DNA of 64,000 nt from Antedon mediterranea (Eukaryota > Echinodermata > Crinoidea > Comatulida > Antedonidae). The DNA is taken from positions 8,369,201-8,433,200 of the forward strand of contig NC_092670.1 of the NCBI RefSeq assembly GCF_964355755.1. Direction: 5' to 3'. The position numbers and the translations under genes are program-made. The notes beneath the pieces are model-generated. The model did no database searches, had not been told where the DNA came from, and was given only the letters and a program-made list of their open reading frames with translations. Shown here one piece after another: positions 5,859 through 62,411 of the stretch. How positions within the stretch are numbered: the first letter of the stretch is position 1; each line of letters starts with the position of its first letter.

Positions 5859-6020
5859 AACAATTAATTAATTTGTGCAGACATATGTCTTTTTTTTTCG
5901 TTTATAAACAATTAGCGTCATTATTACAGGGTACAGATGATGGTTGAAGTTAAACATGTTTGACATTAAATCTTTCGTTTTTTTGATTATTTGTTTTTGT
6001 CTTTTTGTTTCAATTTAAAA

Positions 6021-6326: not shown

Positions 6327-6503
6327 CTTGGTTCCCACTAGAACGTAACGCAAGGACGTAAACGCAACGCAAGCGTTTTAACCAATGACAAGCGAAGTTA
6401 TAGACAGTTAGCAATCACAAGCGAATAAGCCATCGCTTGTGATTGGTCAATTCACTTGCGTTGCGTTACGTCCTTGCGTTGCGTCGCTAGTGGGAACCAC
6501 GCT
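6327..6503. mobile_element. 177-bp MITE present in A, absent in B
   Basis: Terminal inverted repeats CTTGGTTCCCACTAG and CTAGTGGGAACCACGC surround a core with ACGCAACGCAAG and its inverse. It is flanked by TAAAG (6322-6326 and 6504-6508). Block B has the empty site, with one TAAAG at 58812-58816 and otherwise matching flanks. That shows a 5-bp target duplication and insertion into A only (or clean loss from B). No coding capacity; superfamily not assigned. Confidence 0.85.
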
Positions 6504-6508
6504 TAAAG

Positions 6509-7680: not shown

Positions 7681-7794
7681 CATTTGCATATACAGTCTCA
7701 GCCAATTACGTGTCCTGCCGGTCTTGCTGAAGACTTCTTTTCCCATTCCATTAATAGGCAGCAAGTGGACGACTGATGAGAGACGATAATTAGG
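7681..7794 (+). promoter_or_regulatory. ZNF-2 promoter module and 5' exon
   Basis: ATTTGCAT (octamer-like, 7682-7689) is followed by ACAGTCTCAGCCAATTACG (CCAAT box), then GGCAGCAAGTGGACGACTGA and the donor TTAG|GTAGGT at about 7794, which runs into a (GGTA)n microsatellite. The layout matches the modules of ZNF-1 and ZNF-4, and block B has the same at 60240-60365. The short exon carries no long frame and is probably untranslated. Confidence 0.55.
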
Positions 7795-8190
7795 TAGGTA
7801 GGTAGGTAGGTAGGGTTGCCACAACTAAGTTTAAACTTTTATACATTAATTGTTGCCCTTCCAAGTTTTTACGAATTGTTGTGTTTGCCTAAATTGTCTA
7901 TACTCTACACCCATTTCTGTTGTTTTCTTTTTCTCCTTACTTTTTGAAAAGTTTACTTGTGTTCAACATTCTAAATACTATTAGCAGCATAAACATTGAG
8001 GTACTGAATTGAGGGACTGTGTATTAGCAAAGGAAAAGAGGAGTTTTTTTATGATTCGTACACATTTAAATATTTTAGATGTATTCACTATTTCTTTCAA
8101 TTGAGGCAATCACGGTGTATAATGTTACATGTATGTATTTGGACCATGTATCTTACGACGATACGAGAACTACAGTACTGTATAGATTAA

Positions 8191-9004
8191 CAAGGCCAAC
8201 AGCCATTAAGTCGCGTGCTACAATGCATAGTGATACCGGACCGACAGACAAACAGACCGACAGACAGACAGACCGACAGACAGACAGACCGACAGACAGA
8301 CGGACCGACCGACATAGTGAACTATACTGACCGAAATTACTGAACATGTTTAAAAATGTTGAAATGTTTAAAAACATTTATATTTTTTTAATTTACACGT
8401 GCGTAGCCTGTCACTTTTGACGTGCTCGTATAACGTAATTTCGAGTTGAAAAGTAAGTCAAGAAAACAGAAATCGGGCAAAAAGAGTGCGCAATAACATT
8501 TAACGCGCAGTGCGCGCGCAAAAATCTGCGCACTCATGGCAATTTTGTAAACGCTTAAAATTGCCTGAAACGTACTCTTATTTCATCGAAAATAAATTTT
8601 GAAAATTTTAGGCGCGCGTACGCATGCGTTACATGCGCTACGCACGTAATTGTATTGCCATATGATGATTTATGCCCTGAAATTTATGAGTACCAAATTT
8701 TATTTAATTGTGATTCATGGTTGTTAAGATATGATTACAAACGTGATTTCGTTAAATCGTGCGTAGACCGCGTAATTTTTTATTGCGCACCGTGAAATCA
8801 TAACCACATCGATTCCTGGCCATAAGGAATATTCTGTGAAAAATTGATTTAGCTAAATTAAACTGATATCAAGATAAGGTCATAAAGCGATAAAACGCAT
8901 AGTGATACCGGACCGACAGACAGACAGACCGACAGACCGACAGACAGACAGACAGACAGACCGACCGACCGACATAGTGAACTATAGAGTCGCTTCCACG
9001 CGAC
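8191..9004 (-). mobile_element. 814-bp GTCGCGTG element with two GACA/GACC arrays; empty site in B
   Basis: Begins CAAGGCCAACAGCCAT and ends CCACGCGAC, flanked by TAA (8188-8190 and 9005-9007). Block B has a single TAA at 60754-60756 with matching flanks, so the insertion site and 3-bp target duplication are seen directly. Inside are two (GACA/GACC)n arrays (about 8239-8312 and 8912-8972), each bounded by ATAGTGATACCGGACC and GACATAGTGAACTATA, with a ~550-bp core rich in GCGC between them. A TAA/TTA target site is typical of PIF/Harbinger-like elements, but the ends are not clear inverted repeats, so class is undecided. No ORF. Confidence 0.8.
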
Positions 9005-9474
9005 TAAAAACAGGTTTTCCGATTCCCTATACATTTTCAGTTTAAATATAAATTATTCCAATTTTTAAATAAAAGCGGAAACAGAAGGCAGGATATAACA
9101 GTTGTAAAATGAAGTGAAGTGTCCAATATTTTACATTAAAATTGAGTGGTGTGGGGATTCCCCTTCCTTCTGGATCCATGACGTGAAAAGTTACCCACTG
9201 CGTCCGTTCTTCGATTCTTTCTGCACAGCTTTACCTCAGGCGACTGGTGGATGTTGTTACATCTCCCTGGTTAAATATACTAATGGGAACTTTTCCACTT
9301 TGATCCACGTGTACCAGTACGTGTACTGAAAAATACAGGGTTTATTATTTCCATTCTTTTTATATTCTTTTTCTTTCAAATTTTTATTTAGATATATGTG
9401 GAGAACGACGATTGAAATTTGACTTTATTGATAAACAAAAACTAATTGATCAAGTAAAAAAGAGGAAAACCAAC

Positions 9475-10563
9475 ATGAAGTACAAATGTGAACACTGTGG
9501 AGATAAATTTGAGTTAAGTGATTTGAAGGAACATTTAGGAATACATGTGCATTTTAAAGAGTTAAAAGACTACGAGCATTTTCAACTACATGATCAAAAA
9601 CAAAAAGAAATTGAGAATTTGGAAATACACACCACCGAAGAAACTTCATTTGAAAATTTTGGGAATAAAGAAAATGAGAATTTAGGAATATGCACCGATG
9701 AAGAAACTTCGTATGAATGTGAACATTGTGGAATGCAATTTAACAAAATTGATGTTTTAAATAAACATTTGAAAATACACACAAGCGAGACACCATATGA
9801 ATGTGAACATTGTGGAAAAAAATTTAAACAGAATGCTAATTTCAAAAAACATTTCAGAATTCACACAGGAGAAACACCATATGAATGTGAACATTGTAGG
9901 AAGAAATTTAGCTGCAGTCAGAATTTGAATAAACATTTGAGAGTACACACAGGAGAAACACCATATGAATGTGAACATTGTGGAAGAAAATTTAAACAAA
10001 GTGGAGAATTAAAAGTACACGTTAGATCTCACACGGGAGAGACGCCATTTGAATGTGAACAATGTGGTAAGAAATTCAAAGCTAATGCAAATTTGAAAGA
10101 TCATTTTAGAGTACATACAGAAGAGACGCCATATGAATGTATATTTTGTACAAAGAAATTTAAGTCTAATGGGTCTTTAAACTCACATTTGAAATTACAC
10201 ACAGGAAACTTACCATATGAATGTGAACAATGTGGGAGGAAATGTGCCTCTAATGGAATATTAAAAAAACATTTGAGAATTCACAGAAAAGAGAGACCAT
10301 ATGAATGTGAACAATGTGGGAAGACATTTAAAACAAATGAAGGATTAAAATCACATTTGAAAACACATGGAGAGCCACGGTATAAATGCGAATATTGTGG
10401 AGTGAAATATCAAGATAAAAGGTGCTTCCAAATGCATTTGGAAAGACACACAATAGGGAATGAATGGGAGGATTATATTATCAAATCCAATTGCAATGAT
10501 ATGTTTAACTTACGCACAGAAGAGACATCGTATGGTAACATTTATAACTTGCATACATTTTAA
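9475..10563 (+). CDS. ZNF-2, C2H2 zinc-finger protein
   Basis: Probable nuclear DNA-binding protein of 362 residues from the ATG at 9475 ([12 protein letters not shown]). The frame is open upstream to a splice acceptor (TTATTTAG|AT, exon from 9392) and would add [12 protein letters not shown]-like residues if an upstream exon supplied a start. Order: atypical N-terminal finger (C-x2-C-x11-H-x3-H), acidic spacer, then nine fingers with TGETP/TSETP-type linkers ending near residue 325, and a short tail. Finger 3 is a chimera: its first half matches one finger of ZNF-2' and its recognition segment (SCSQNL) the next, and the protein is exactly 28 residues, one finger, shorter than ZNF-2'. Confidence 0.88.
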   Translation: MKYKCEHCGDKFELSDLKEHLGIHVHFKELKDYEHFQLHDQKQKEIENLEIHTTEETSFENFGNKENENLGICTDEETSYECEHCGMQFNKIDVLNKHLKIHTSETPYECEHCGKKFKQNANFKKHFRIHTGETPYECEHCRKKFSCSQNLNKHLRVHTGETPYECEHCGRKFKQSGELKVHVRSHTGETPFECEQCGKKFKANANLKDHFRVHTEETPYECIFCTKKFKSNGSLNSHLKLHTGNLPYECEQCGRKCASNGILKKHLRIHRKERPYECEQCGKTFKTNEGLKSHLKTHGEPRYKCEYCGVKYQDKRCFQMHLERHTIGNEWEDYIIKSNCNDMFNLRTEETSYGNIYNLHTF

Positions 10564-16849: not shown

Positions 16850-17400
16850 TTAATTTTGTCAATACAAAATTCATTTTGTCAACACAAAATTTATTTTGTA
16901 TTGACAAAATTCATTTTATGTTGACAAAATTTATTCTGTGTGGACAAAATTAATTTTGTCTTGACAAAATTCATTTTGTCTTGACAAAATTCATTTTGTC
17001 TTGACAAAATTCATTTTGTCATTTTGTCTCGACAAAATTAATTCTGTGTAAACAAAATTCATTCTGTGTAGACAAAATTAATTCTGTGTTGACAAAATTA
17101 ATTCTGTGTAGACAAAATTCATTCTGTAACGACAAAATTCATTTTGTGGCGACAAAATTCATTCTGTAACGACAAAATTCATTTTGTGTAGACAAAATTA
17201 ATTCTGTGTGGACAAAATTAATTCTGTGTAGACAAAATTAATTCTGTGTGGACAAAATTCATTTTGTGGCGACAAAATGTATTCTGTGTAGACAAAATTT
17301 ATTCTGTGTAGACAAAATTCATTCTGTGTAGACAAAATTCATTCTGTGTAGACAAAATTCATTTTGTTGCGACAAAATTTATTTTGTCGCGACAAAAATA
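16850..17400. repeat. Palindromic ~20-bp minisatellite, left arm
   Basis: About 27 units of the form GACAAAATTMATTYTGTNNN. The core ACAAAATTAATTTTGT is a perfect 16-base palindrome, and the three- to four-base spacer (GTA, GTG, CGC, AAC) varies. The array can form many alternative hairpins. Confidence 0.9.
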
Positions 17401-20298: not shown

Positions 20299-20756
20299 TT
20301 AATTTTAAAATAAAGTATATACATTTTATAAGATTAATAAACAATATTTTAAACGACAAAATATTAAATAGCCCCATTACTACAATTTTACTTAAGTAAT
20401 AAGCAGGGCTCTAATGAAAACCATTTTCCGATTTTTTAATATAGAATACATTATAATAATAATTACTGACGACGTAGATATTAAATTGTCAAAGTATGAA
20501 TACTGATCATATCTGATATTTTCAGGGGTTCCCTGATATTATAAAATAGATTAATATGATAGCAATAGAGACGGAGGCATGCTCAGCCATAATAACTTAA
20601 CCAATAACAAATGTCAAAGATAGCTTCACCCTGTCTTGCCCTTTTCACGTTTAAACTCCGCCTTCTAATTTAAATATTAAAACGGAGCCTACTCAAGCGT
20701 GGGACAAAATGTTTTAAAAAACGTTTTGTCCCACGCTTGAGTAGGCTCGGCTAACA

Positions 20757-21270
20757 AAATTTATTTTGTCTCGACAAAATGAATTTTGTTGCAACAAAAT
20801 TCATTTTGTCTACACAGAATGAATTTTGTCTACACAGAATTAATTTTGTCCACACAGAATTAATTTTGTCCACACAGAATTAATTTTGTCCACACAGAAT
20901 AAATTTTGTCTACACAGAATTAATTTTGTCCACACAGAATTAATTTTGTCTACACAAAATTAATTTTGTCGTTACAGAATGAATTTTGTCGCCACAAAAT
21001 GAATTTTGTCGTTACAGAATGAATTTTGTCTACACAGAATTAATTTTGTCAACACAGAATTAATTTTGTCAACACAGAATTAATTTTGTCTACACAGAAT
21101 GAATTTTGTTTACACAGAATTAATTTTGTCGAGACAAAATGAATTTTGTCCACACAGAATAAATTTTTTCAACAAAAAATGAATTTTGTCAATACAAAAT
21201 GAATTTTGTCAATACAAAATGAATTTTGTGTTGACAAAATGAATTTTGTATTGACAAAATTAATTATGTG
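20757..21270. repeat. Palindromic ~20-bp minisatellite, right arm
   Basis: Same unit as at 16850-17400 in inverted arrangement, about 25 copies. Just inside it (20690-20750) an extra copy of the junction word forms a hairpin, GCGTGGGACAAAA facing TTTTGTCCCACGC. Confidence 0.88.
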
Positions 21271-21325
21271 TAGACAAAATTGTAATATTTCGACAAAATT
21301 AGCAATGTCCCAAACGGCGCCCCGT

Positions 21326-38910: not shown

Positions 38911-39692
38911 CCCTTGTTTAGGCGCCGTATTCGATAGTGTCTGTATATCCAGACACGTCTTTACCGCCGGTTAAGTTGTCTGTATTTCCAGCAAACACTT
39001 TACCGCGTACATGAAGCGCTAAGCTATTGCTTGTCGTCACATGATCGACTGCGCATGTTTTACATCGAGTTTGTAGTCAGTTCAGATTCCGTAATTTAAT
39101 TACCGGTATTTTTTCATTTTATATTAGCATATTTTTGTTGTATACCATTGATAATGTAAATTTTGTATATATATAATGATATTGTCTTTAGTTAAACAAG
39201 ACAAGAAAAAATACCAACTGAGGAAATGGTGGACCTTTTGGGAACGCACATCATGAGGTAATTTCCCGATTGATCGTAATCAAAACGGTACTGGGTTTGG
39301 TCTACTAGCGTTCCTGCTCCCAACCAGTACATCCATTCATAGAAGCCTTAATGAAGTAAGCCTACCTGGTGGTGGCCATAGAACGGTCCCGAGATAACGA
39401 CTATACTTCGGCTTTAGTCGATAGAAGATTGAATAAATTGTTAGAGATAGAGTATACGATGTTATGATTATGTGTAGATATGTGATTTGTTCTTTTTATT
39501 CAAATGATGTTATGTATTTAATAAATTTGTTATATCAATTAATTTAATTATCGTAGATTGCATGTTATGTGATGAATATTATTTAATAGATTTTTGATAT
39601 ATTATTATTATTATATTAATAAAAAAGATATTTGTTAGTATACGGGCCTGATTATTAGTTAATTTATTTTCTTTCAGATTACAGAATACAGC
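38911..39692 (+). other. Upstream region and probable intron of ZNF-3
   Basis: A possible internal exon (acceptor TGTCTTTAG at 39191, donor ATGAG|GTAATT at about 39257) precedes the coding exon's acceptor, TTTCTTTCAG|ATTACAG (39677). The CCAAT module seen at the other ZNF loci is not found here. The possible exon does not continue in frame into the fingers. Confidence 0.4.
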
Positions 39693-42600
39693 ATGAAATA
39701 TAAATGTGAACACTGTGGAGTTAAGTTGGAATTCAGTGACTTGAAAGAACATTTAGGATTACACAATCATTCTAAAGAAATAAAATGTGAGCTCTGTGAA
39801 CATACAATTGACAAGTGTAAGCTACATAACCAGACACCATATGAATGTGATCATGAGGAGGAAGGAAATCGGAATTTGAAAAAACATTTGAGCACAAACA
39901 CAGGAGAGACACCATATGAATGTGAGCATGAGAGGGAAGGAAATCGGAATTTGAAAAAATATTTGAGCACAAACAGAGGAGAGACACCATATGAAGGTGA
40001 GCATGAGAAGGAAGGAAATCGGAATTTAAAAAAACATTTGAGCACAAACACAGGAGAGACACCATATGAATGTGAGCATGAGAAGGAAGGAAATCTGAAT
40101 TTGAAAAAACATTTGAGCACAAACACAGGAGAGACACCATATGAATGTGAGCATGAGAAAGAAGGAAATCGGAATTTGAAAAAACATTTGAGCACAAACA
40201 CAGGAGAGACACCATATGAATGTGAGCATGAGAAAGAAGGAAATCGGAATTTAAAAAAACATTTGAGCACAAACACAGGAGAGACACCATATGAATGTGA
40301 GCATGAGAAGGAAGGAAATCTGAATTTGAAAAAACATTTGAGCACAAACACAGGAGAGACACCATATGAATGTGAGCATGAGAAAGAAGGAAATCGGAAT
40401 TTGAAAAAACATTGGAGAACAAACACAGGCGAGACACCATATGAATGTGAGCATGAGAAGGAAGGAAATCGAAATTTGAACAAACATTTGAGGACAAACA
40501 CAGGTGAGACACCATATGAATGTGAGCATGGGAAAGAAGGAAATCGGAATTTGAAAAAACATTTGAGAACAAACACAGGAGAGACACCATATGAATGTGA
40601 GCATGAGAAGGAAGGAAATCGAAATTTGAACAAACATTTGAGGACAAACACAGAAGAGACACCATATGAATGTGAGCATGAGAAGGAAGGAAATCGGAAT
40701 TTGAACAAACATTTGAGGACAAACACAGGAGAGACACCATATGAATGTGAGCATGCGAAAGATGGAAATCGGAATTTGAAAAAACATTTGAGAACAAACA
40801 CAGGAGAGACACCATATGAATGTGAGCATGAGAAGGAAGGAAATCGAAATTTGAACAAACATTTGAGGACAAACACAGGAGAGACACCATATGAATGTGA
40901 GCATGAGAAGGAAGGAAATCGGAATTTGAAAAAACATTTGAGCACAAACGTAGGAGAGACACCATATGAATGTGAGCATGAGAAGGAAGGAAATCGGAAT
41001 TTAAAAAAACATTTGAGCACAAACACAGGAGAGACACCATATGAATGTGATCATGAGAAGGAAGGAAATCTTAATTTGAAAAAACATTTGAGCACGAACA
41101 CAGGAGAGACACCATATGAATGTGAGCATGAGAAAGTAGGAAATCAGAATTTGAAAAAACATTTGAGCACAAACACAGGAGAGACACCATATGAATGTGA
41201 GCATGAGAAAGATGGAAATCGGAATTTGAAAAAACATTTGAGAACAAACACAGGAGAGACACCATATGAATGTGAGCATGAGAAGGAAGGAAATCGAAAT
41301 TTGAACAAACATTTGAGGACAAACACAGGTGAGACACCATATGAATGTGAGCATGGGAAAGAAGGAAATCGGAATTTGAAAAAACATTTGAGAACCAACA
41401 CAGGAGAGACACCATATGAATGTGAGCATGAGAAGGAAGGAAATCGAAATTTGAACAAACATTTGAGGACAAACACAGGAGAGACACCATATGAATGTGG
41501 GCATGAGAAGGAAGGAAATCGGAATTTGAAAAAACATTTGAGCACAAACGCAGGAGAGACACCATATGAATGTGAACATTGCGGGAAGAAATTCAAATGG
41601 AAGTCAACTTTGAAAACACATTTGAGAACACACAAAAGAGAGACACCATATGAATGTCAAAATTGTGGAAAGAAATTTAAACAAAGCTGGAATAGGAAAA
41701 TGCATTTGAGAAAACACACAAGAGAGACACAATATCAACGTGAACATTGTGGTAAGAAATTTAAACAAAATGGAAATTTAGAGATTCTTTTGAGAAAATA
41801 CACAGGAGAGACACCATATGAATGTGAGCATGAGAAGGAAGGAAATCGAAATTTGAACAAACATTTGAGGACAAACACAGGAGAGACACCATATGAATGT
41901 GGGCATGAGAAGGAAGGAAATCGGAATTTGAAAAAACATTTGAGCACAAACGCAGGAGAGACACCATATGAATGTGAACATTGCGGGAAGAAATTCAAAT
42001 GGAAGTCAACTTTGAAAACACATTTGAGAACACACAAAAGAGAGACACCATATGAATGTCAAAATTGTGGAAAGAAATTTAAACAAAGCTGGAATAGGAA
42101 AATGCATTTGAGAAAACACACAAGAGAGACACAATATCAACGTGAACATTGTGGTAAGAAATTTAAACAAAATGGAAATTTAGAGATTCTTTTGAGAAAA
42201 TACACAGGAGAGACACCATATGATTGTGAACATGGTGGTAAGAAATTGAAACAAAATGGAAATTTAAAGATTCGTTTGAGAAAACACACAGGAGAGACAC
42301 CATATGATTGTGAAAAAGAGAAGGAAGGAAATCTGAATTTAAAAAAACATTTGAGCACAAACATGGGAGAGACACCATATGAATGTGAGCATGAGAAGGA
42401 AGGAAATCGGAATTTGAAAAAACATTTGAGCACAAACACAGGAGAGACACCATATGAATGTGAGCATGAGAAGGAAGGAAATCGGAATTTGAAAAAACAT
42501 TTGAGCACAAACACAGGAGAGACACCATATGAATGTGAACATTGCGGGAAGAAATTCAAATTGAAGTCAACTTTGAAAGCACATTTGAGAACACACAAAA

Positions 42601-44717
42601 GAGAGACACCATATGAATGTCAAAATTGTGCGAAGAAATTTAAGCAAAGCTGGAATTTGAAAATGCATTTGAGAAAACACACAAGAGAGACACAATATCA
42701 ACGTGAACATTGTGGTAAGAAATTTAAACAAAATGGAAATTTAGAGATTCGTTTGAGAAAATACACAGGAGAGACACCATATGAATGTGAACATTGTGGA
42801 AAGAAAATTAAACTAAATGGAAATTTGAAAATGCATTTGAGAACACACACAGGAGAGACACCATATGAATGTGAACATTGTGGTATTAAATTTAAACTAA
42901 GGTGGAATTTGAAAATTCATTTGGGAACACACACAGGAGAGACACCATATGAATGTCAACATTGTGGACAGAAATTTAAACAAAATGGAAATTTGAAAAT
43001 GCATTTGAGAACACACACAGGAGAGACACCATATGAATGTGAACATTGTGGTAAGAAATTTAAACAAAATGGGGACTTGAAAAGACATTTGAGAATACAC
43101 ACAGGAGAGGCACCATATGAATGTGCGCATTGTGGTAAGAAATTTAAACTAAATGGAAATTTGAAGATTCATTTGAGAACACACACAGGAGAGACACCAT
43201 ATCAATGTCAACATTGTGGACAGAAATTTAAACAAAATGGAAATTTGAAAATGCATTTGAGAACACACACAGGAGAGACACCATATGAATGTGAACATTG
43301 TGGTAAGAAATTTAAACACAATTGGGACTTGAAAAGACATTTAAGAATACACACAGGAGAGGCACCATATCAATGTGCACATTGTGGTAAGAAATTTAAA
43401 CTAAATGGAAATTTGAAGATTCATTTGAGAACACACACAGGAGAGACACCATATGATTGTGAACATTGTGGACAGAAATTTACACAAAATGGAAGTTTGA
43501 AGATACATTTGAGAACACACACTAGAGACGCACCATATGAATGTGAACATTGTGGTAAGAAATTTAAACACAATGGGGACTTGAAAAGACATTTGAGAAT
43601 ACACACAGGAGAGGCACCATATGAATGTGAACATTGTGGTAAGAAATTTAAACAAAATGGAAATTTGAAGATACATTTGAGAAAACACACAGGAGAGACA
43701 CCATATGAATGTGAACATTGTGGAAAGAAATTTAAACTAAATGGAAATTTGAAGATACATTTGAGAATACACACAGGAAAGACACCATATGAATGTGAAC
43801 ATTGTGGTAAGAAATTTAAACTCAATGGAAATTTGAAAAGACATTTGAGAATACACACAGGAGATACACCTTATGAATGTGAACATTGTGGGAAGAAATT
43901 TAAACAAAGCTGGAATTTGAAAATGCATTTGAGAACACACACAGGAGAGACACCATATGAATGTGAACATTGTGGTAAGAAATTTAAACACAATGGAGAC
44001 TTGAAAAGACATTTGAGAATACACACAGGAGAGACACCATATGAATGTGAACATTGTGGTAAGAAATTTAAACACAATGGGGACTTGAAAAGACATTTGA
44101 GAATACACACAGGAGAGGCACCATATGAATGTGAACATTGTGGTAAGAAATTTAAACTAAGGTGGAATTTGAAATTTCATTTGGGAACACACACAGGAGA
44201 CACACCATATGAATGTGAACATTGTGGTAAGAAATTTAAACGAAGTGGAAGTTTGAAGATACATTTGAGAACACACACAGGAGAGACACCATATGAATGT
44301 CAACATTGTGGTAAGAAATTTAAACAAAATGGAAATTTGAAAATGCATTTGAGAACACACACAGGACAGGCACCATATGAATGTGCACATTGTGGTAAGA
44401 AATTTAAACACAATGGGGACTTGAAAAGACATTTGAGAATACACACAGGAGAGGCACCATATGAATGTGAACATTGTGGTAAGAAATTTAAACAAAATGG
44501 GGTTTTGAAAAGACATTTGAGAACACACACAAGAAAGGCATCATATGAATGTGAACATTGTGGTAAGAAATTTAAACAAAATGGGGTTTTGAAAAGACAT
44601 TTGAGAACACACACAAGAAAGGCATCATATGAATGTGAACATTGTGGAACGAAATTTACACGGAATGCTACTTTGAATGCACATTTAAAAACACATAACA
44701 CACCTTATGAAATTTAA
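39693..44717 (+). CDS. ZNF-3, giant zinc-finger protein with degenerate 25-residue arrays
   Basis: An open frame of 1674 residues from an ATG 15 bases after a good splice acceptor. Order: atypical N-terminal finger (residues about 4-21), 23 tandem units of 25 residues (39834-41558), then mixed blocks in which five more such units alternate with true or defective 28-residue fingers, then 23 consecutive canonical C2H2 fingers to near the end. The 25-residue unit (type TPYECEHEKEGNRNLKKHLS plus TNTGE) keeps one Cys and one His but lacks the second Cys, the core Phe and the last His, so it cannot bind zinc as a C2H2 finger. The canonical fingers reuse few helix types (QNGNLKM, HNGDLKR, LNGNLKI), a sign of recent expansion. 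The stop follows a small deletion that throws later finger sequence out of frame. Probably nuclear; the role of the degenerate half is unknown. Confidence 0.85.
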   Translation: MKYKCEHCGVKLEFSDLKEHLGLHNHSKEIKCELCEHTIDKCKLHNQTPYECDHEEEGNRNLKKHLSTNTGETPYECEHEREGNRNLKKYLSTNRGETPYEGEHEKEGNRNLKKHLSTNTGETPYECEHEKEGNLNLKKHLSTNTGETPYECEHEKEGNRNLKKHLSTNTGETPYECEHEKEGNRNLKKHLSTNTGETPYECEHEKEGNLNLKKHLSTNTGETPYECEHEKEGNRNLKKHWRTNTGETPYECEHEKEGNRNLNKHLRTNTGETPYECEHGKEGNRNLKKHLRTNTGETPYECEHEKEGNRNLNKHLRTNTEETPYECEHEKEGNRNLNKHLRTNTGETPYECEHAKDGNRNLKKHLRTNTGETPYECEHEKEGNRNLNKHLRTNTGETPYECEHEKEGNRNLKKHLSTNVGETPYECEHEKEGNRNLKKHLSTNTGETPYECDHEKEGNLNLKKHLSTNTGETPYECEHEKVGNQNLKKHLSTNTGETPYECEHEKDGNRNLKKHLRTNTGETPYECEHEKEGNRNLNKHLRTNTGETPYECEHGKEGNRNLKKHLRTNTGETPYECEHEKEGNRNLNKHLRTNTGETPYECGHEKEGNRNLKKHLSTNAGETPYECEHCGKKFKWKSTLKTHLRTHKRETPYECQNCGKKFKQSWNRKMHLRKHTRETQYQREHCGKKFKQNGNLEILLRKYTGETPYECEHEKEGNRNLNKHLRTNTGETPYECGHEKEGNRNLKKHLSTNAGETPYECEHCGKKFKWKSTLKTHLRTHKRETPYECQNCGKKFKQSWNRKMHLRKHTRETQYQREHCGKKFKQNGNLEILLRKYTGETPYDCEHGGKKLKQNGNLKIRLRKHTGETPYDCEKEKEGNLNLKKHLSTNMGETPYECEHEKEGNRNLKKHLSTNTGETPYECEHEKEGNRNLKKHLSTNTGETPYECEHCGKKFKLKSTLKAHLRTHKRETPYECQNCAKKFKQSWNLKMHLRKHTRETQYQREHCGKKFKQNGNLEIRLRKYTGETPYECEHCGKKIKLNGNLKMHLRTHTGETPYECEHCGIKFKLRWNLKIHLGTHTGETPYECQHCGQKFKQNGNLKMHLRTHTGETPYECEHCGKKFKQNGDLKRHLRIHTGEAPYECAHCGKKFKLNGNLKIHLRTHTGETPYQCQHCGQKFKQNGNLKMHLRTHTGETPYECEHCGKKFKHNWDLKRHLRIHTGEAPYQCAHCGKKFKLNGNLKIHLRTHTGETPYDCEHCGQKFTQNGSLKIHLRTHTRDAPYECEHCGKKFKHNGDLKRHLRIHTGEAPYECEHCGKKFKQNGNLKIHLRKHTGETPYECEHCGKKFKLNGNLKIHLRIHTGKTPYECEHCGKKFKLNGNLKRHLRIHTGDTPYECEHCGKKFKQSWNLKMHLRTHTGETPYECEHCGKKFKHNGDLKRHLRIHTGETPYECEHCGKKFKHNGDLKRHLRIHTGEAPYECEHCGKKFKLRWNLKFHLGTHTGDTPYECEHCGKKFKRSGSLKIHLRTHTGETPYECQHCGKKFKQNGNLKMHLRTHTGQAPYECAHCGKKFKHNGDLKRHLRIHTGEAPYECEHCGKKFKQNGVLKRHLRTHTRKASYECEHCGKKFKQNGVLKRHLRTHTRKASYECEHCGTKFTRNATLNAHLKTHNTPYEI
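39834..41558 (+). repeat. 75-bp coding tandem array, 23 units
   Basis: Exactly periodic at 75 bp without a single frame break. Variants (KKHLST, NKHLRT, LNLKKH) alternate in a way that suggests blocks of two or more units were copied together. Compared with a normal 84-bp finger, nine bases are missing between the first Cys and the helix. Individual units have lost even the remaining ligands (PYEGEH in unit 3; KKYLST in unit 2). Confidence 0.95.
41409..42212 (+). repeat. 402-bp in-frame tandem duplication in ZNF-3
   Basis: Two degenerate units plus three 28-residue fingers (134 residues) occur twice in succession, 41409-41810 and 41811-42212, apparently without differences. The third finger (QYQREHCGKKF and then LEILLRKY) is already defective in both, so the defect predates the duplication. 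Confidence 0.9.
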
Positions 44718-45665
<948 letters not shown>

Positions 45666-45939
45666 ATTAATAGGTTAAGTTTGAATATTTTTTGGGGAAA
45701 ATCAACAGAAATATTTATTTCAGATAAATGAGTTACTATAATGCAGTACTCATTAATTTGAGCCATAATAATTGAAGAATATAATTATGTAGATTACTGT
45801 ATTCCCTGATACAAAAAACTAATACATAGAAGTTTTTAAAGAGTTTTAAGATTTGATATTATAAAACAATGTCAATCAAGCAAATCAAACAAAATAGATA
45901 ATAATAAATCATTCCAAAGTGAGAATTTTAAAAAAAAAA

Positions 45940-46440
45940 CATTTTAGAACTCGCACAATGAATCCGAATATTGTGAGAATAAAAAAAACATTTTAGAACT
46001 CGCACAATGAATCTGAATATTGTGAGAATAAAAAAACATTTTAGAACTCGTACAATGAATCTGAATATTGTGAGAATAAAAAAAAACATTTTAGAACTCG
46101 CACAATGAATCTGAATATTGTGAGAATAAAAAAAACATTTTAGAACTCGCACAATGAATCTGAATATTGTGAGATAAAAAAAAACATTTAGAACTCGCAC
46201 AATGAATCTGAATATTGTGAGAATAAAAAAAAAAACATTTTAGAACTCGCACAATGAATCTGAATATTGTGAGAATAAAAAAACATTTTAGAACTCGCAC
46301 AATGAATCTGAATATTGTGAGAATAAAAAAAACATTTTAGAACTCGCACAATGAATCTGAATATTGTGAGAATAAAAAAAAACATTTTAGAACTCGCACA
46401 ATGAATCTGAATATTGTGAGAATAAAAAAAACATTTAAAA
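45940..46440 (+). repeat. ~50-bp zinc-finger-derived minisatellite
   Basis: About ten copies of ACATTTTAGAACTCGCACAA followed by TGAATCTGAATATTGTGAGA and an A run of 6-12. In one frame a unit reads like a collapsed finger (SEYCENKKHFRTR), retaining one Cys and one His. Unit length varies only in the A run (about 47-53 bp), so the reading frame is not kept. Copies are nearly identical. Confidence 0.9.
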
Positions 46441-48384: not shown

Positions 48385-49754
48385 GATTTATTGATGAATG
48401 AATATGACTTCAACAAAGAAGAATTTAACAGTGTAAATACCAACATGAAATGCAAATGTGAACACTGTGGAGATGAATTTGAGTTCAGGGATTTGAAGGA
48501 ACATTTAGGAATACACGTACATAGTAAAGAGTTTAAATGTGAAAACTCCGAGGATTTTCTGCTAAATGGCCAAACACCATATTATGACTTTGAACATTGT
48601 AGGCCTAGAATTGAAGAAAGTAAACATTTTGGACTACCCATTGTCGAAAAATCTTCATATGAATTTGAACATTGTCGAAATGACGAAAGTGAGAATTCAA
48701 GTAACACTGCCGTAGAAGCTTCGTATGAATTAGAACATTGTCGAAATGAAGAAAATGAGAATTTGGGAAACACCGTATACTAAATCTGATGAAAATTGTG
48801 GAACTGAAGAAAGGGGTGATTTGGGAATTCACACTTTCGAAGAAACTTCGTTTGGTTGTGAAAATTGTGGGAAAGTGATGATTTAACAAAACCATTTTAA
48901 AATTCACACAAGAGAGACACAACATGAATGTGAACATTGTGGGAAGACATTTAAACAGAATGCGAATTTGAAAAAGCATTTGAGAATACACACAGGAGAA
49001 GCACCATTTGAATGTAAACACTGTGGGAAGAATTTTAAAGAAAGGGGGAATTTAAACAAGCATTTGCGGATGCATACAGGAGAGAAACCATATGATTGTG
49101 AATACTGTGGGAAGAAATTTAGATCTAGTGTAAATTTGACAAAACATTTGAGAGTACACACAGGAGAGAAGCCATACGAATGTGAACAGTGTCAAAGGAA
49201 ATTTAAACACAGTGGGCAATTAAAAATACATTTTAGAACTCACACAGGGGAGACACCGTATGGATGTGAACATTGTGGAAAGAAATTTAAATAGAGAGTG
49301 ATTTTGAGAGAACATTTGATTGAGAATACACACAGGAGAGAAACCATATGAATGTATATTTTGCGCGAAGAACTTTAGAACTAGTAGTTATTTAAATATA
49401 CATTTGAGATTACACACAGGATGCAAATCGTATGAATGTGAATATTGTGGACAGAAATTTATCACTAATGGGACTTTAAAAAAACATTTGATAATTCACA
49501 CCGGAGAGACACCTTATGAATGTGAGCATTGTGGAAAGAAATTTGAACATAATGGATATTTAAAATTACATTTGAGAATACACACGGGAGAGAAACCATA
49601 TAAATGTGAACAATGTGGAATACAATTTCAATGGGATAAAACCTTCAAAAGGCATCTAAAAACACACACACACAGACACTCTTTAAATGAAAACACTGTG
49701 CTATCATCTTTAAATTCAATTACATTATTACCAATCAATCAATTACAAAATTAG
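48385..49754 (+). pseudogene. ZNF-4, frame-broken zinc-finger gene
   Basis: The exon opens after an acceptor with LLMNEYDFNKEEFNSVN and the family's atypical N-terminal finger ([20 protein letters not shown] plus H), then an acidic spacer with two repeats of type YEFEHCRNDESEN. The frame stops at 48781. Finger sequence resumes in frame from about 48896 to a stop at 49292 (four complete fingers and a broken one), and again from 49320 to 49754 (four fingers). At least three frame changes are therefore needed to join eight complete fingers. Domain order resembles ZNF-2. It is a pseudogene unless the breaks are sequencing errors; the separate frames contain no other damage, so decay is recent. 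Confidence 0.8.
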
Positions 49755-50429: not shown

Positions 50430-51512
50430 TATATCGCAAAAATAATAGCAGTTTGTACAGTAGGTCAGTGGTGTAGGAAAGAGTGGTATCGCACAAAATA
50501 ATAGCAGTTTGTACAGTAGGTCAGTGGTGTAGGAAAGAGTGGTATCGCACAAAATAATAGCAGTTTGTACAGTAGTAGGTCAGTGGTGTAGGAAAGAGTG
50601 GTATCGCACAAAATAATAGCAGTTTGTACAGTAGGTCAGTGGTGTAGGAAAGAGTGGTATCGCACAAAATAATAGCAGTTTGTACAGTAGGTCAGTGGTG
50701 TAGGAAAGAGTGGTATCGCACAAAATAATAGCAGTTTGTACAGTAGGTCAGTGGTGTAGGAAAGAGTGGTATCGCACAAAATAATAGCAGTTTGTACAGT
50801 AGGTCAGTGGTGTAGGAAAGAGTGGTATCGCACAAAATAATAGCAGTTTGTACAGTAGGTCAGTGGTGTAGGAAAGAGTGGTATCGCACAAAATAATAGC
50901 ATTTTGTACAGTAGGTCAGTGGTGTAGGAAAGAGTGGTATCGCACAAAATAATAGCAGTTTGTACAGTAGGTCAGTGGTGTAGGAAAGAGTGGTATCGCA
51001 CAAAATAATAGCAGTTTGTACAGTAGGTCAGTGGTGTAGGAAAGAGTGGTATCGCACAAAATAATAGCAGTTTGTACAGTAGGTCAGTGGTGTAGGAAAG
51101 AGTGGTATCGCACAAAATAATAGCAGTTTGTACAGTAGGTCAGTGGTGTAGGAAAGAGTGGTATCGCACAAAATAATAGCAGTTTGTACAGTAGGTCAGT
51201 GGTGTAGGAAAGAGTGGTATCGCACAAAATAATAGCAGTTTGTACAGTAGGTCAGTGGTGTAGGAAAGAGTGGTATCGCACAAAATAATAGCAGTTTGTA
51301 CAGTAGGTCAGTGGTGTAGGAAAGAGTGGTATCGCACAAAATAATAGCAGTTTGTACAGTAGGTCAGTGGTGTAGGAAAGAGTGGTATCGCACAAAATAA
51401 TAGCAGTTTGTACAGTAGGTCAGTGGTGTAGGAAAGAGTGGTATCGCACAAAATAATAGCAGTTTGTACAGTAGGTCAGTGGTGTAGGAAAGAGTGGTAT
51501 CGCACAAAATTC
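50430..51512. repeat. 56-bp minisatellite, about 19 units
   Basis: Unit GTATCGCACAAAATAATAGC followed by AGTTTGTACAGTAGGTCAGT and GGTGTAGGAAAGAGTG. Almost no variation is seen: one unit has an extra GTA (about 50573) and one has ATTTTGTAC for AGTTTGTAC (about 50900). Non-coding. Such uniformity points to recent expansion. Confidence 0.95.
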
Positions 51513-55251: not shown

Positions 55252-55826
55252 GTAAGTACCAGGATTTTGTTGTGTATTTTTGTTTATGCAATTGCACTAA
55301 ACAGTAACTTGTGTATATTTTAATGCAGTAAGTTGTGGATTCCGTAAGTTGTTTAAAAATGTTTTAAAATATACATACATTTTTTACTTTAATTCTTCCA
55401 AATTTTACGATCTTTTATATCTATATAATATATCGGTATATCTTTATTCAAATGACACAAGCAGCCAATGACTGAAACCGTAGTCGTACAATATTAAAGA
55501 CAATCATGATAAAAACAGGTAAAAAAAATACTTTAAAAAGCCGGTACTAGGCTCCTTCAAGCCTAGAGTAATCGATCGATCCAAACCCACAAGTTTTTTG
55601 ATGAACAGTGCATGTTTACTTTATGTTATTGCCTACTTTACTACCCCTTATTCAATATATGCCACGCTGTACTTTTGGTAAATTTTATTTATATTTATTG
55701 GATTTTTTAAATTTACAGTACAGTAGGCCTATAATTATGAAGAAATGTCATCGCAATTAGGACGAACTCAACAGCAACATTAACTTTTAAAAATCATTAA
55801 AAAAAGATTTTTTATTGAACATCAGC
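55252..55826 (+). other. Probable intron and leader of ZNF-1'
   Basis: Collinear with 2711-3280. The acceptor region reads TTTACAGTACAG, offering two AG choices five bases apart. Confidence 0.45.
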
Positions 55827-57848
55827 ATGGAGTTCAAATGTGAACACTGTGGAGATAAATTTGAGTTAAGTGATTTGAAGGAGCATTTAGGAATACATGT
55901 CCGTTTTAAAGAGTTAAAATGTGAAAACACAAACGAAGTTGAACCACAAGATAAGACACCCTATGAGAAAGAAGGTGAGAATTTGGAAATAAACGCTGCC
56001 ATAGAAACTTCATATAAATGTGAACATTGTGGGAAGCAATTTGGACAAAAAGAAGATTTGAAACAACATTTGCAAATACACAGAGAAGAGAAACCATATG
56101 AATGTGAACAATGTAATAAAAGATTTAAACAGAATGCGAATTTGAAGAAACATTTGAGAATTCACACAGGAGAGACACCATATGAATGTGAGCATTGTGA
56201 GAAAAAATTTAAAGAAAGGGGGAATTTGAACAAACATTTGCGTTTACACTCAGGAGAGACACCGTACGAATGTGAACATTGTGGTAAAAAATTTAAATGT
56301 AGCGAGAATTTGAAAAAACATTTGAGAATACACACAGGAAAAAAACCTTATGAATGTGAACATTGTGGGAAGAAATTTGCACAAAGCGGGGCAATGAAAA
56401 CTCATGTCAGAATTCACACAGGAGAAAAACCATATGAATGTGAACAATGTGGGAAGAAATTTGGAGCTAGTGGTTCTTTAAAAAAACATCTGAGAGTACA
56501 TACTGGAGAAAAACCATTTGAATGTAAATATTGTTCAAAGAAATTTAGCTCTAAAAAATATTTAATAGTACACACACGGTTACACACAGGAGAGCAACTA
56601 TATGAATGTGAATATTGTGGGAAGAAAATTAACAATAAAGAAAACTGGAGAAAACATGTGATGCTACACACAGGAGAGAGACCATATGAATGTGAGCATT
56701 GTGGAAAGAAATTTAGAGGTAATGGAAATTTAAAATTACATTTGAGAATTCACACTGGAGAGAAACCATTTGAATGTGAATATTGTGGGAAGAAATTTAA
56801 CGATAAAGGACAATGGAAAAAACATGTGATGCTACACACAGGAGAGAGACCATATGGATGTGAGCATTGTGGAAAGAAATTTAGAGGCAATAAAAATTTT
56901 AAATTACATTTGAGAATTCACACTGGAGAGAAACCATTTGAATGTGAACATTGTGGTAAGAAATTCCAATGGCGGGAGACCTTCAAAAATCATTTGAGAA
57001 TACACACAGGAGAAACACCTTATGGATGTGAACATTGTGGGATGAAATTTAAAGGAGGAAACCAATTGGAAATACATTTGAGAATTCACACAAAAATAAC
57101 GCCACCATCTCATAATTTGGAACAGAACAAAGGTAATGTAAATGTAAAATCACCGTTGAAAATACTCAGAGCGACACCATCTGGATCTTATGGATGTGAA
57201 CAAAAATTTATAAATAATTTTATAACACACAAGAGAGAGACAGAATCTAAATGTGAACATTGTGGAATAAAATTCGAAACTATTGAATATTTAAAATCGC
57301 ATTTGAGAATACACATAAAAAAGGAAATACCGTCTTATGAATGTGAACAGAAATGTATAACTAATTTTATAACCTACAAGAAAGAGACACCATATGGAAT
57401 GGAACATAAAAGAGAGACACCATATGGAAAGGAACATAAAGAGAAGACACCATATGGAATGGAACATAAAGAAAATAGTACACCACATGAAATAGAACAT
57501 AAAGGAGAGACACCATATGAAATGGAACATAAAGGAGATATACCATATGAAATGGAACATAAAGGAGAGACACCATATGAAATGGAACATAAAGGCGATA
57601 TACCATATGAAATGGAATATAAAGGAGATATACCATATGAAATGGAACATAAAGGAGAGACACCATATGAAATGGAATATAAAGGAGAGATACCATATGA
57701 ATTTGAACATACAGGAGACACATCATATGGAATGGAACATTTAATACACAGAACACAGATACCATATGAAATGGAACAATTAATAGGCATAGGCCTACAC
57801 ACAGGAGAAACACCATATGAGATGGGAACATTGTGGGATCGAATTTAA
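55827..57848 (+). CDS. ZNF-1', second copy of ZNF-1
   Basis: 673 residues from the ATG at 55827. Same plan as ZNF-1: short N-terminal finger, acidic spacer, 13 canonical fingers, degenerate spacer, one isolated finger, then 14 linker-derived decapeptide units (two fewer than ZNF-1, from 57385). The frame is intact. Most fingers are identical or nearly so to ZNF-1, but fingers 3-4 differ: here they read [18 protein letters not shown] and [18 protein letters not shown], whereas ZNF-1 has the ZNF-2 family version. ZNF-1' probably keeps the ancestral form. Confidence 0.9.
   Translation: MEFKCEHCGDKFELSDLKEHLGIHVRFKELKCENTNEVEPQDKTPYEKEGENLEINAAIETSYKCEHCGKQFGQKEDLKQHLQIHREEKPYECEQCNKRFKQNANLKKHLRIHTGETPYECEHCEKKFKERGNLNKHLRLHSGETPYECEHCGKKFKCSENLKKHLRIHTGKKPYECEHCGKKFAQSGAMKTHVRIHTGEKPYECEQCGKKFGASGSLKKHLRVHTGEKPFECKYCSKKFSSKKYLIVHTRLHTGEQLYECEYCGKKINNKENWRKHVMLHTGERPYECEHCGKKFRGNGNLKLHLRIHTGEKPFECEYCGKKFNDKGQWKKHVMLHTGERPYGCEHCGKKFRGNKNFKLHLRIHTGEKPFECEHCGKKFQWRETFKNHLRIHTGETPYGCEHCGMKFKGGNQLEIHLRIHTKITPPSHNLEQNKGNVNVKSPLKILRATPSGSYGCEQKFINNFITHKRETESKCEHCGIKFETIEYLKSHLRIHIKKEIPSYECEQKCITNFITYKKETPYGMEHKRETPYGKEHKEKTPYGMEHKENSTPHEIEHKGETPYEMEHKGDIPYEMEHKGETPYEMEHKGDIPYEMEYKGDIPYEMEHKGETPYEMEYKGEIPYEFEHTGDTSYGMEHLIHRTQIPYEMEQLIGIGLHTGETPYEMGTLWDRI
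57385..57730 (+). repeat. 30-bp coding minisatellite in the ZNF-1' tail
   Basis: Units of the form [10 protein letters not shown] / [10 protein letters not shown] in frame. Same array as 4838-5240, two units shorter. Confidence 0.9.
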
Positions 57849-58127
57849 CCAGAATGACAATTACATTATACTATTAATTTAACCATATCAAGTTTACTAG
57901 GGGGCCATATAAAGTTTATCCTACTGCCGTAACTACACTTAGGCATACTTGTAGGAGGGATCGAGGGGAGGGTGTAATGTTTATCGCAGTGACTATCTCA
58001 AATAACCTCATCCGTTCAGTAGTATAACTTTTGACCTGATCCTTAATTTTACTGTAAATATATTTAGAAGAATACATTGGTTAGATAATGTTTAAACTAT
58101 AAGTTACTAATAAGTTACTAATACTGT
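57849..58127. other. 3' flank of ZNF-1'
   Basis: Non-coding, collinear with 5363-5629. Confidence 0.5.
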
Positions 58128-58350
58128 AAAGATGTATTGTCCCCCAAACCGGTTAAAATCAATCAAAAACACATTGTCTTCCAGACAATTTGTCTGCTTT
58201 AGCTTTCAGTTTTTTTTACGTTAATATTTTTTTTCCGATCCAATTTGTGGTGAATAGTGAAGTGAATAACTATTATGTAACATTAAAATGGCATATTCAA
58301 CAAAACATTTAACAAAATTATTTTTTTCAGATTCAAAATATACCTTTAAA
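58128..58350. mobile_element. MITE, AAAGATGTATTGTCCCCC family
   Basis: Orthologous to the copy at 5630-5858, lacking a few bases in the TGTCTTCCAGACAATTTG region. Confidence 0.6.
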
Positions 58351-58508
58351 CAATTAATTAATTTGTGCAGACATATGTCTTTTTTTTGTTTATAAACAAT
58401 TAGCGTCATTATGACAGGGTACAGATGATGGTTGAAGTTAAACATGTTTGACATTAAATCTTTCGTTTTTTGATCATTTTTCTTTGTCTTTTTGTTTCAA
58501 TTTAAAAC

Positions 58509-58621
58509 AAGGCCATATAGGTGGCTGGCTGCAGTCGCGTGCTCAAGTTAGTGTTTATGACCAACCTACCGACCAACCGACGGACCGACATAGTGAGTTG
58601 TAGAGTCGCGCTGCACGCGAC
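58509..58621 (-). mobile_element. Short GTCGCGTG/GGTC-repeat element
   Basis: Same position and structure as 6021-6130. It differs by a GGCT expansion in ATAGGTGGCTGGCTGCAG. Confidence 0.6.
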
Positions 58622-58816
58622 TAAAAACTTCAGTTCCTGTTTTAATACGGAGGTTGGAGAAAACGTTAGAAAATGTATTCGTACGTTCATGAAAAGCGGA
58701 ATAATATCTAATTTTTCTACATAATTGCAAGACGTTCAGCGTACATTCGAACACTGTAGCCTACCTTTTACAATTATTATAACAATTGGTAACGTAACAA
58801 AAGTCAACCAATAAAG

Positions 58817-59373
58817 TAAAAACAGTACTTTTTTGTAAGTGTGTGTGTCTATTTTCTATTGTTTGTTTCTTCTGTTGGATATTAATGGTGCTAAATCTTT
58901 TACATGAACGGAAGATGGAATCGTATTAATAGTAATAAAAGAGTATGCAAATTATGATGAATACTTTCGTTTGTCCCTTTTATTCAGATAATATTAGAAC
59001 TAAATATATGATTTCCTTTAATTCAAATAACACAAATTGAAATATATTTATCGTTGTCTGCTACAAATACTAATCTAGTGTTGTTTTAATTTAGACGTTC
59101 TAAAAGGAAAGCATGATGGTCAAATGAACAATGTGTAAGTTTATTTGTAGTTATTTGAATTACTGAAACAAATTGTAATACAGTAATTCGTATTAAAAAT
59201 ATATAATTTGCTATTTACCACTTTCAGCTGAATATGCCTCACTTTAGTCAAATGAACAATGTGTAAGTTTATTTGTAATTATTTGAATTACTGAAACAAA
59301 TTGTAATACTTCTTCTTCTCTAGACTTCTGGTCAAGGGCATTTATACAGCACATAGGCCAGAGGCCCGAAGTA
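58817..59373. other. Non-coding spacer
   Basis: Collinear with 6509-7050, including the duplicated phrase GTCAAATGAACAATGTGTAAG. The site at 58812-58816 is the empty site for the MITE at 6327. Confidence 0.5.
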
Positions 59374-59619
59374 AACCGATATCTTTTCTCCTTTCTGCCT
59401 ACAGGTATCAGGAGACATCAGCGACATTCATCCAGATGAGCACCATGAAATAATATGTAATAATATGTTCTTGTTGTGAGTTTTTAATATTGGTATTGTT
59501 GTATTGTCATGTTATTTTATATATTGTAATTATGATGTATTTGAAGACGAGCAATGTAAATTTTCTCCTTGTGGGAACGAATAAAGATTATACTTGATAC
59601 TTGATACTTGATACTTGTA
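59374..59619 (+). mobile_element. 3' tail of a LINE, present in B only
   Basis: 246 bp absent from block A (position about 7050, GAAGTACATATT uninterrupted). It ends with AATAAAGATTATACTTGATA and several TTGATAC repeats, as expected for a 5'-truncated non-LTR retrotransposon insertion. GTA flanks both sides (59371-59373 and 59617-59619), so the target duplication is very short or obscured. Confidence 0.75.
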
Positions 59620-60239
59620 CATATTATTATATTATTTACAAAAATTAGATGCAGAAAGAAATATTTCTTTTTTTAATTCACAAAAAATGTATTTAGACAT
59701 ATTTTCCATTAAAGTGATATTTCTGGAAGCCATTAAAATAATGAACTTACTTTCAGAAGGGAAATTATAAAACTAAACTGGTAATAACTCATGACGTAAC
59801 TTATTTAGAATGGACAAATTAACAGAAAGTGATATTCATCATCTATGTTATTGCTATGACATAATTTATATATTCTATAGTAATTCGTATTAAAAATACA
59901 TAATTTGCTTTTTACCACTTTCAGCTGAATATGCCTCACTTTTTATTGAGGGTAAGTGTTCAATTAAAACAGATCAGATGATAATTTAAAAGTTATATTG
60001 TTCTGTTTCAAAACAAATTGACTTAATATATAATAGTCAATTAACACAACCTTTACAATTATACACAAATATTTTTTTGAAAAAGTAGAATTTCAAAAGT
60101 ATTATAAAGGCGTGTATCCTACTGTATTATGCAATTTCTATTGTAGTGTTCAATCAAGTCCACCCAATTTCATCGCCACGCCACTCTAACAATTGTTTTA
60201 TGTTATTGTCCCGGTGGGTGCATTACAATCAATTAGTAA
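59620..60239. other. Non-coding spacer upstream of ZNF-2'
   Basis: Collinear with 7051-7680 in block A; nothing else recognised. Confidence 0.5.
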
Positions 60240-60365
60240 AATAATCTAATTTGCATATACAGTCTCAGCCAATTACGTGTCCTGCCGGTCTTGCTGAAGA
60301 CTTCTTTTCCTCCCATTCCATTAATAGGCAGCAAGTGGACGACTGATGAGAGACGATAATTAGGT
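60240..60365 (+). promoter_or_regulatory. ZNF-2' promoter module and 5' exon
   Basis: TTTGCATATACAGTCTCAGC followed by CAATTACG (octamer-like word and CCAAT box), GGCAGCAAGTGGACGACTGA and donor TTAG|GTAGGT. The first T of the octamer-like word follows AATCTA here (AATCTC in block A). The (GGTA)n microsatellite after the donor is shorter than in block A. Confidence 0.55.
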
Positions 60366-61155
60366 AGGTAGGTAGGTAGGGTTGCCACAACTAAGTTTAA
60401 ACTTTTATACGTTAATTGTTGCCCTTCCAAGTTTTTACGAATTGTTGTGTTTGCCTAAATTGTCTATACTCTACACCCATTTCTGTTGTTTTCTTTTTCT
60501 CCTTACTTTTTGAAAAGTTTACTTGTGTTCAACATTCTAAATACTATTAGCAGCATAAACGTTGAGGTACTCAATTGAGGGACTGTGTATTAGCAAAGGA
60601 AAAGAGGAGTTTTTTTATGATTCGTACACATTTAAATATTTTAGATGTATTCACTATTTCTTTCAATTGAGGCAATCACGGTGTATAATGTTACATGTAT
60701 GTATTTGGACCATGTTTCTTACGACGATACGAGAACTACAGTACTGTATAGATTAAAAACAGGTTTTCCGATTCCCTATACATTTTCAGTGTAAATATAA
60801 ATTATTCTAATTTATAAATAATAGCGGAACCAGAAGGCAGGATATAAAAGTTGTAAAATGAAGTGAAGTGTCCAATATTTTACATTAAAATTGAGGGGTG
60901 TGGGGCTTCCCCTTCCTTCTGGATCCATGACGTGAAAAGTTACCCACTGCGTCCGTTCTTCGATTCTTTCTGGAAAGCTTGGACAGCTTTACCTCAGGCG
61001 GCTGGTGAATGTTGTTACATCTCCCTGGTTAAATGTACTAATGGGAACTTTTCCACTTTGATCCACGTGTACCAGTAGGCCTACGTGTACTGAAAAATAC
61101 AGGGTTTATTATTTCCATTCTTTTTATAATCTTTTTCTTTCAAATTTTTATTTAG
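60366..61155 (+). other. Probable intron of ZNF-2'
   Basis: Lacks the 814-bp element present in block A; the empty site is TAA at 60754-60756. Ends at the acceptor TTATTTAG (61155). Confidence 0.5.
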
Positions 61156-61238
61156 ATATATGTGGAGAACGACGATTGAAATTTGACTTTATTGATAAAC
61201 AAAAACTAATCGATCAAGTAAAAAAGAGGAAAACCAAC

Positions 61239-62411
61239 ATGAAGTACAAATGTGAACACTGTGGAGATAAATTTAAGTTAAGTGATTTGAAGGAACATTT
61301 AGGAATACATGTGCATTTTAAAGAGTTAAAAGACTACGAGCATTTTCAACTACATGATCAAAAACGAAAAGAAATTGAGAATTTGGAAATACACACCACC
61401 GAAGAAACTTCATTTGAACATTTTGGGAATAAAGAAAATGAGAATTTAGGAGTATGCACCGATGAAGAAACTTCGTATGAATGTGAAAATTGTGGAATGC
61501 AATTTAACAAAATTGATGTTTTAAATAAACATTTGAAAATACACACAAGCGAGACACCATATGAATGTGAACATTGTGGAAAAAATTTTAAACAGAATGC
61601 TAATTTCAAAAAACATTTGAGAATTCACACAGGAGAAACACCATATGAATGTGAACATTGTAGGAAGAAATTTAAAGAAAGGGGGAATTTGAATAAACAT
61701 TTGAGAGTACACACAGGAGAGAAACCATATGAATGTGAACATTGTGGAAAGAAATTTAGCTGCAGTCAGAATTTGAAAAAACATTTGAGAGTACACACAG
61801 GAGAAACACCATATGAATGTGAACATTGTGGAAGAAAATTTAAACAAAGTGGAAAATTAAAAGTACACGTTAGATCTCACACGGGAGAGACGCCATTTGA
61901 ATGTGAACAATGTGGTAAGAAATTCAAAGCTAATGCAAATTTGAAAGATCATTTTAGAGTACATACAGAAGAGACGCCATATGAATGTATATTTTGTACA
62001 AAGAAATTTAAGTCTAATGGGTCTTTAAACTCACATTTGAAATTACACACAGGAAACTTACCATATGAATGTGAACAATGTGGGAGGAAATGTGCCTCTA
62101 ATGGAATATTAAAAAAACATTTGAGAATTCACAGAGAAGAGAGACCATATGAATGTGAACATTGTGGGAAGACATTTAAAACAAATGAAGGATTAAAATC
62201 ACATTTGAAAACACATGGAGAGCCACGGTATAAATGCGAATATTGTGGAGTGAAATACCAAGATAAAAGGTGCTTCCAAATGCATTTGGAAAGACACACA
62301 ATAGGGAATGAATGTGAAGATTATATTATCAAATCCAATTGCAATGATATGTTTAACTTACGCACAGAAGAGACATCGCATGGTAACATTTATAACTTGC
62401 ATACATTTTAA
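61239..62411 (+). CDS. ZNF-2', second copy of ZNF-2 with one more finger
   Basis: 390 residues from the ATG at 61239; the frame is open upstream to the acceptor at 61155. Short N-terminal finger, acidic spacer, ten fingers, short tail. The extra finger relative to ZNF-2 is the pair [18 protein letters not shown] plus [18 protein letters not shown], which in ZNF-2 is merged into one. That pair is identical at the nucleotide level to fingers 3-4 of ZNF-1 in block A (about 3595-3815). Frame intact; likely a functional nuclear DNA-binding protein by family. Confidence 0.88.

Follow-up and report, generated by a model that had tools for sequence, protein, structure and literature searches.

Degenerate zinc fingers are usually viewed as scattered by-products of rapid turnover in finger arrays. 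Mutational inactivation of fingers is part of the evolution of poly-zinc-finger proteins (PMC2604467), and examples are documented among mammalian KRAB-ZNF proteins, where 4 of the 19 fingers of ZNF443 are degenerate (PMC2667407) and isolated degenerate fingers occur in the 8q24.3 cluster (PMC2865497). A second relevant system is PRDM9, whose zinc-finger array has been described as a coding minisatellite (PMC8925151).

Here we describe a poly-zinc-finger gene of Antedon mediterranea that carries a coding minisatellite whose units, despite their C2H2 descent, fail the defining features of C2H2 fingers. The gene lies in a stretch of 64,000 nt (the window; NC_092670.1, here C1, positions 8,369,201–8,433,200, forward strand). 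It and its sisters resemble other C2H2 (Krüppel-type) poly-zinc-finger genes in their TGE-TPY linkers, Cys1, helix-like NLxxH motif, tandem units, and clustered, fast-evolving paralogs, but the array units differ from the C2H2 families of Pfam (zf-H2C2_2 and zf-C2H2) in lacking Cys2, the core Phe, and His2, and in being 25 rather than 28 residues long. As in the KRAB-ZNF proteins, the degenerate units are in frame, have lost ligands, and sit inside poly-zinc-finger proteins; whereas the described KRAB-ZNF cases are single or scattered, one dead finger has here given rise to 4–28 uniform copies throughout a whole gene family. The likeness to PRDM9 is that a zinc-finger exon holds an in-frame tandem repeat that varies in copy number (here between paralogs) and evolves in concert, but the repeat units of PRDM9 are 84 bp long and encode functional, positively selected fingers, in contrast to the 75-bp dead units of this locus, in which the contact positions are nearly fixed. 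In the open-access literature we found reports of degenerate single fingers and of PRDM9-type minisatellites, and none of a homogenized array of dead fingers.

Organization of the Array Gene

The gene occupies an open frame on the forward strand (39663–44717; 1684 codons without a stop) that, from the ATG at 39693 to the TAA at 44715–44717, encodes a poly-zinc-finger protein of 1674 amino acids. A splice-acceptor-like sequence (TTTTCTTTCAG) lies a few bases upstream of the ATG and is common to all sister genes, with small variations (e.g., in L022). An N-terminal finger and a CX2CX6CX2H segment (39693–39833, including KCELCEHTIDKCKLHNQ) are common to sisters with and without the array, although shortened in L035 and L036, and Pfam searches of the open frame (upstream exons aside) gave no named N-terminal effector domain of the KRAB, ZAD, or BTB type.

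Repeat finding and reading of the locus placed the main array, 23 tandem 75-bp (25-residue) degenerate finger units with a TRF score of 3574, at 39834–41558; this score and the recurrence of the array in about ten paralogs rule out coincidence. Next in the same orientation come three 28-residue units (41559–41810), the third of which (41727) lacks Cys1, His1, and His2; two more 25-residue units (41811–41960); four 28-residue units (41961–42296), two of them canonical and two with lost ligands; three more 25-residue units (42297–42521); and a stretch of 28-residue fingers (42522–44714) whose final unbroken run comprises 23 canonical fingers by Pfam and unit reading. The two-unit group falls within an internal duplication of a block of two degenerate units and three fingers, in which 41409–41810 recurs at 41811–42212. 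The 28 units, arranged as 23, 2, and 3, share a single open frame with zero stops, exactly as the sequence-only reading had counted them. Its figure of 23 normal fingers holds for the terminal run and not as a total, which amounts to 29 canonical CX2CX12HX3H fingers (Pfam finds zf-C2H2 in 29 stretches of the protein) plus several 28-residue fingers with lost ligands (e.g., those at 41727, 42129, 42213, and 42690).

With its tandem canonical fingers and TGE[KT]PY-type linkers the gene is a poly-C2H2 gene, and the terminal 23-finger run is presumed to be its DNA-binding array, sequence-specific binding being predicted by analogy with the family. Broken-frame finger-coding remnants lie past the TAA (44718–45170, + strand) and may point to a formerly larger number of fingers in the gene.

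Descent and Features of the 25-Residue Unit

The unit consensus, TPYECEHEKEGNRNLKKHLSTNTGE, is three residues (net −9 nt) shorter than a normal 28-residue finger and retains Cys1 and His1, while Cys2, the core Phe, and His2 are gone. These losses, including the replacement of the final His by Asn, had been recognized from the letters of the window alone; of the 155 units compared, all lack Cys2 and all have Asn (or Lys) in place of His2. Near-invariant positions are Cys1 (153 of 155), His1 (152 of 155), Gly10, and Asn13; in unit 3 of the window gene Cys1 is lost too (TPYEGEH). The units do not have the two Cys and two His of a C2H2 ligand set, nor a beta-beta-alpha core with both Phe and Leu (Leu is kept, Phe is absent), and they would not be expected to bind zinc.

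Their ancestry remains legible. The Pfam family zf-H2C2_2 matches the 25-residue units with 151 bits, a phmmer search with the unit returns matches to zinc-finger structures, and at the DNA level the unit aligns to the 84-bp finger units; at the level of these comparisons the units are shown to be recognizably derived from C2H2 fingers. Relatives of the unit were also sought in viral contigs, where none were found. Within the window gene, mean divergence is 6.1% among 25-residue units vs. 14.8% among 28-mers. The unit is a polyampholyte (five Glu, four Lys/Arg, and two His), a composition consistent with disorder.

Copy Number Among Sister Genes

Searching the genome (354 Mb, 18 contigs) with four units as query and then reading the loci revealed at least 10 paralogs with 4–28 units, nine of them in a 0.42-Mb cluster (C1:8.09–8.51 Mb) and one on contig C8. 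The position of the array is identical in the paralogs, between the N-terminal finger and the ordinary fingers, and unit counts run from 4 (the C8 gene) through 9–22 in the others to 28 in the window gene. Four further sisters, L030–L033, have one or two units only, and L035 and L036 have zero. The 5′ flanks of the latter two differ by only 1–3% from those of array-bearing sisters, which implies that whole arrays are gained or lost quickly. Setting aside a 3-nt insertion, the lone unit of L031 and L032 agrees with the array consensus at all but 4 of 75 positions, and thus looks like the amplified seed, or a remnant. The existence of sisters with one or two units or none indicates that one degenerate finger was amplified and that copy number is still changing. 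The repeat, being tandem and in frame, with homogenized units and a copy number of 0–28 between sisters, has the properties of a coding minisatellite. Deeper dating by a tree of 5′ flanks was dropped because flanks were not alignable between clades (25–43% apparent difference).

These counts come from one assembly, repeat arrays are error-prone, and one paralog (L025) carries an extra A in a homopolymer, all of which might point to repeat mis-assembly as the source of the length or uniformity of the array. The at least 10 separate paralogs nevertheless differ in unit order, in unit count, and in private variants, the fetched stretches contain zero N, and array-less sisters provide a contrast; we regard an assembly artifact as very improbable.

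Constraint on Frame and Residues

In six pairs of intact sisters, frame-changing gaps numbered 2 in 19.7 kb of coding sequence vs. 36 in 9.5 kb of flank, a large difference even though the pairs are not independent of one another and a few of the flank gaps lie at alignment ends. The two coding gaps (40 and 53 nt) belong to a single pair, where each offsets the other. No stops were found in 170 units, against 6.8 expected (P = 0.0006, by tree counting over 78 distinct units), and by the same kind of counting the 25-mers and the 28-mers alike have fewer stops than expected. The exact 75-bp period and the lack of any stop or frameshift over 1.7 kb, which the sequence-only reading had stressed, are real, but as the consensus unit contains no stop, a freshly homogenized array would be open almost automatically. 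The comparison of paralogs is the stronger evidence that the frame is kept.

Two of the 10 array-bearing paralogs are broken, L021 by 4 extra nt within a 25-mer and by ~600 nt inserted into one of its fingers, and L025 by its extra A, which lies in an A-run and could be a sequence error. Such losses, together with the capacity of recent homogenization to preserve openness, would fit a gene family that is decaying, untranscribed, or without function, its array staying open only through a stop-less, self-copying consensus unit. That reading is improbable in view of the eight array-bearing paralogs that are open (471–1684 amino acids), the near absence from coding sequence of frame-changing gaps that are common in the flanks, the depletion of stops in 25-mers and 28-mers alike, and the diversification of the real fingers at base-contact positions, as in active poly-zinc-finger genes.

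To assess the residue sequence, each change was counted once on the tree of 78 distinct units. The array showed 104 nonsynonymous and 40 synonymous changes (103 and 34 expected if neutral), giving an ω of ~0.86, statistically indistinguishable from 1 (P = 0.21), although the power of this tree-based test is limited, given that the real fingers of the array genes yield 0.9–1.15. A selection test based on distinct mutation types was abandoned in favor of tree-based counting as too blunt, the real fingers having the same ratio (0.95). Amino-acid change in the array is near-neutral, with residues protected weakly at most, and only the reading frame is clearly protected. Pairwise counts between paralogs suggest some purifying selection, with pooled pN/pS of 0.54 in the array, 0.70 in the fingers, and 0.35 in the N-terminal segment, all with copied variants counted repeatedly, and 0.36 for the array between L028 and the window gene. 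Because variants are copied between units these ratios are non-independent, and we did not base the reading on them.

Replacements at helix positions −1, 3, and 6 made up 6 of 104 in the 25-mers vs. 91 of 386 in the 28-mers (Fisher P = 1.3e-5). The base-contact positions, hypervariable in the 28-mers, are nearly fixed in the 25-mers, and by this measure nothing suggests that the array has been selected for new DNA specificity. The near-invariance of Cys1, His1, Gly10, and Asn13 could reflect a residue-specific role as readily as homogenization.

Predicted Structure

With paralog alignments as input, AlphaFold assigned six units a pLDDT of 23–34 and no stable elements, while two adjoining fingers in the same chain reached 62–77 with the beta-beta-alpha pattern. 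A second run, on six units preceded by the N-terminal segment, gave five models, of which four had a pLDDT of ~31 and the best one contained repeated beta-hairpins at ~50–58. Perfect repeats are known to mislead structure predictors, and a beta-hairpin fold for the array, seen in one model of five at that pLDDT, was rejected. The models offer no confident fold for the 25-residue units.

These results bear on the choice left by the sequence-only reading between a new repeat protein domain and an expansion that is harmless when translated. A functional repeat domain, with units that fold or act collectively and are kept for that function, might take the form of an alternative metal site (Cys1/His6/His17), a stack of beta-hairpins, or a multivalent surface for a partner or RNA. 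It would agree with the great uniformity of the units, the presence of Cys1, His6, and His17 in most copies, the pooled pN/pS between paralogs, and the regular hairpin repeat in the one low-confidence model. Recent homogenization, however, predicts uniformity equally well, ω (~0.86) is not different from 1 once each change is counted a single time, the first AlphaFold run and most models of the second are without a fold, and sisters swing between 0 and 28 units, in some cases at 1–3% flank divergence. We judge a domain of this kind unlikely. The array as a repeat domain newly evolved from a dead zinc finger with a function of its own, whether multivalent binding, an inter-unit metal site, or a selected, length-tunable spacer, is quite unlikely. 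The harmless expansion is the better supported of the two options, the units being finger-derived, present in 0–28 copies, near-neutral, and of no predicted fold, with only the frame clearly protected; the new domain gained no positive support.

Other Repeats and Genes in the Window

Elsewhere in the window, a 30-bp in-frame repeat (10 residues; 4825–5254 and 57383–57740, + strand), a linker-only finger relic, lies at the C-terminal end of the proteins of a second zinc-finger subfamily (ORFs 3245–5362 and 55791–57848). At least seven genes of this subfamily with the repeat are present in the C1 cluster, all open and ~685–815 amino acids long, and the repeat parallels the 75-bp array as a coding repeat that descends from a degenerate finger. 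One zinc-finger gene pair is present twice, ~52 kb apart (3245–10563 and 55791–62411, + strand), and represents a segmental duplication of the cluster.

Downstream of the array gene, a 49-bp tandem repeat (45932–46436, + strand; 10 copies, 95%) resembles finger-coding DNA and, with a period not divisible by three, is apparently a non-coding finger-derived minisatellite. A zinc-finger gene at 48448–49740 (+ strand), which has frame changes and in-frame stops (e.g., TAA near 48781, TAG near 49291), is probably a pseudogene; past its first finger it contains degenerate units of another form (SYELEHCRNEENENLGNT). A 56-bp tandem repeat at 50432–51510 (19 copies, 99% identity) is a very recent satellite, and two similar-looking arrays of a 20-bp unit (ACAAAATTCATTCTGTGTAG and ACAGAATTAATTTTGTCTAC), of ~26 copies each, lie at 16864–17387 and 20754–21281.

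Origin and Significance of the Array

We favor, with a probability of roughly 0.7, a coding minisatellite built in frame from a dead finger, which is tolerated by the gene and would be translated as a disordered spacer. In an ancestral gene, a C2H2 finger beside the N-terminal finger would have decayed in frame, with the net loss of 9 nt and of Cys2, Phe, and His2. The resulting 75-bp minisatellite would then have multiplied and been homogenized through the kind of exchange by which zinc-finger arrays generally evolve, presumably gene conversion or unequal crossing-over. With gene duplication the arrays would have spread over the 0.4-Mb cluster. If expressed, such an array may form a charged, disordered, non-zinc-binding spacer of ~100–700 residues that separates the N-terminal finger from the real DNA-binding fingers, and the exact sequence and number of its units would be of little importance. 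Selection would hold the frame open for the sake of the downstream fingers: a ribosome gets to the C-terminal fingers only by way of the array, so the frame can be kept without constraint on residues.

What has been amplified and homogenized here, throughout an entire gene family, is a dead finger that keeps its frame under little constraint on its residues. The sister genes form a natural series (0, 1, 2, 4, and 9–28 units) for testing how a non-binding spacer array affects a zinc-finger protein, and the same series would allow the step from a broken domain to a new low-complexity region to be tested.
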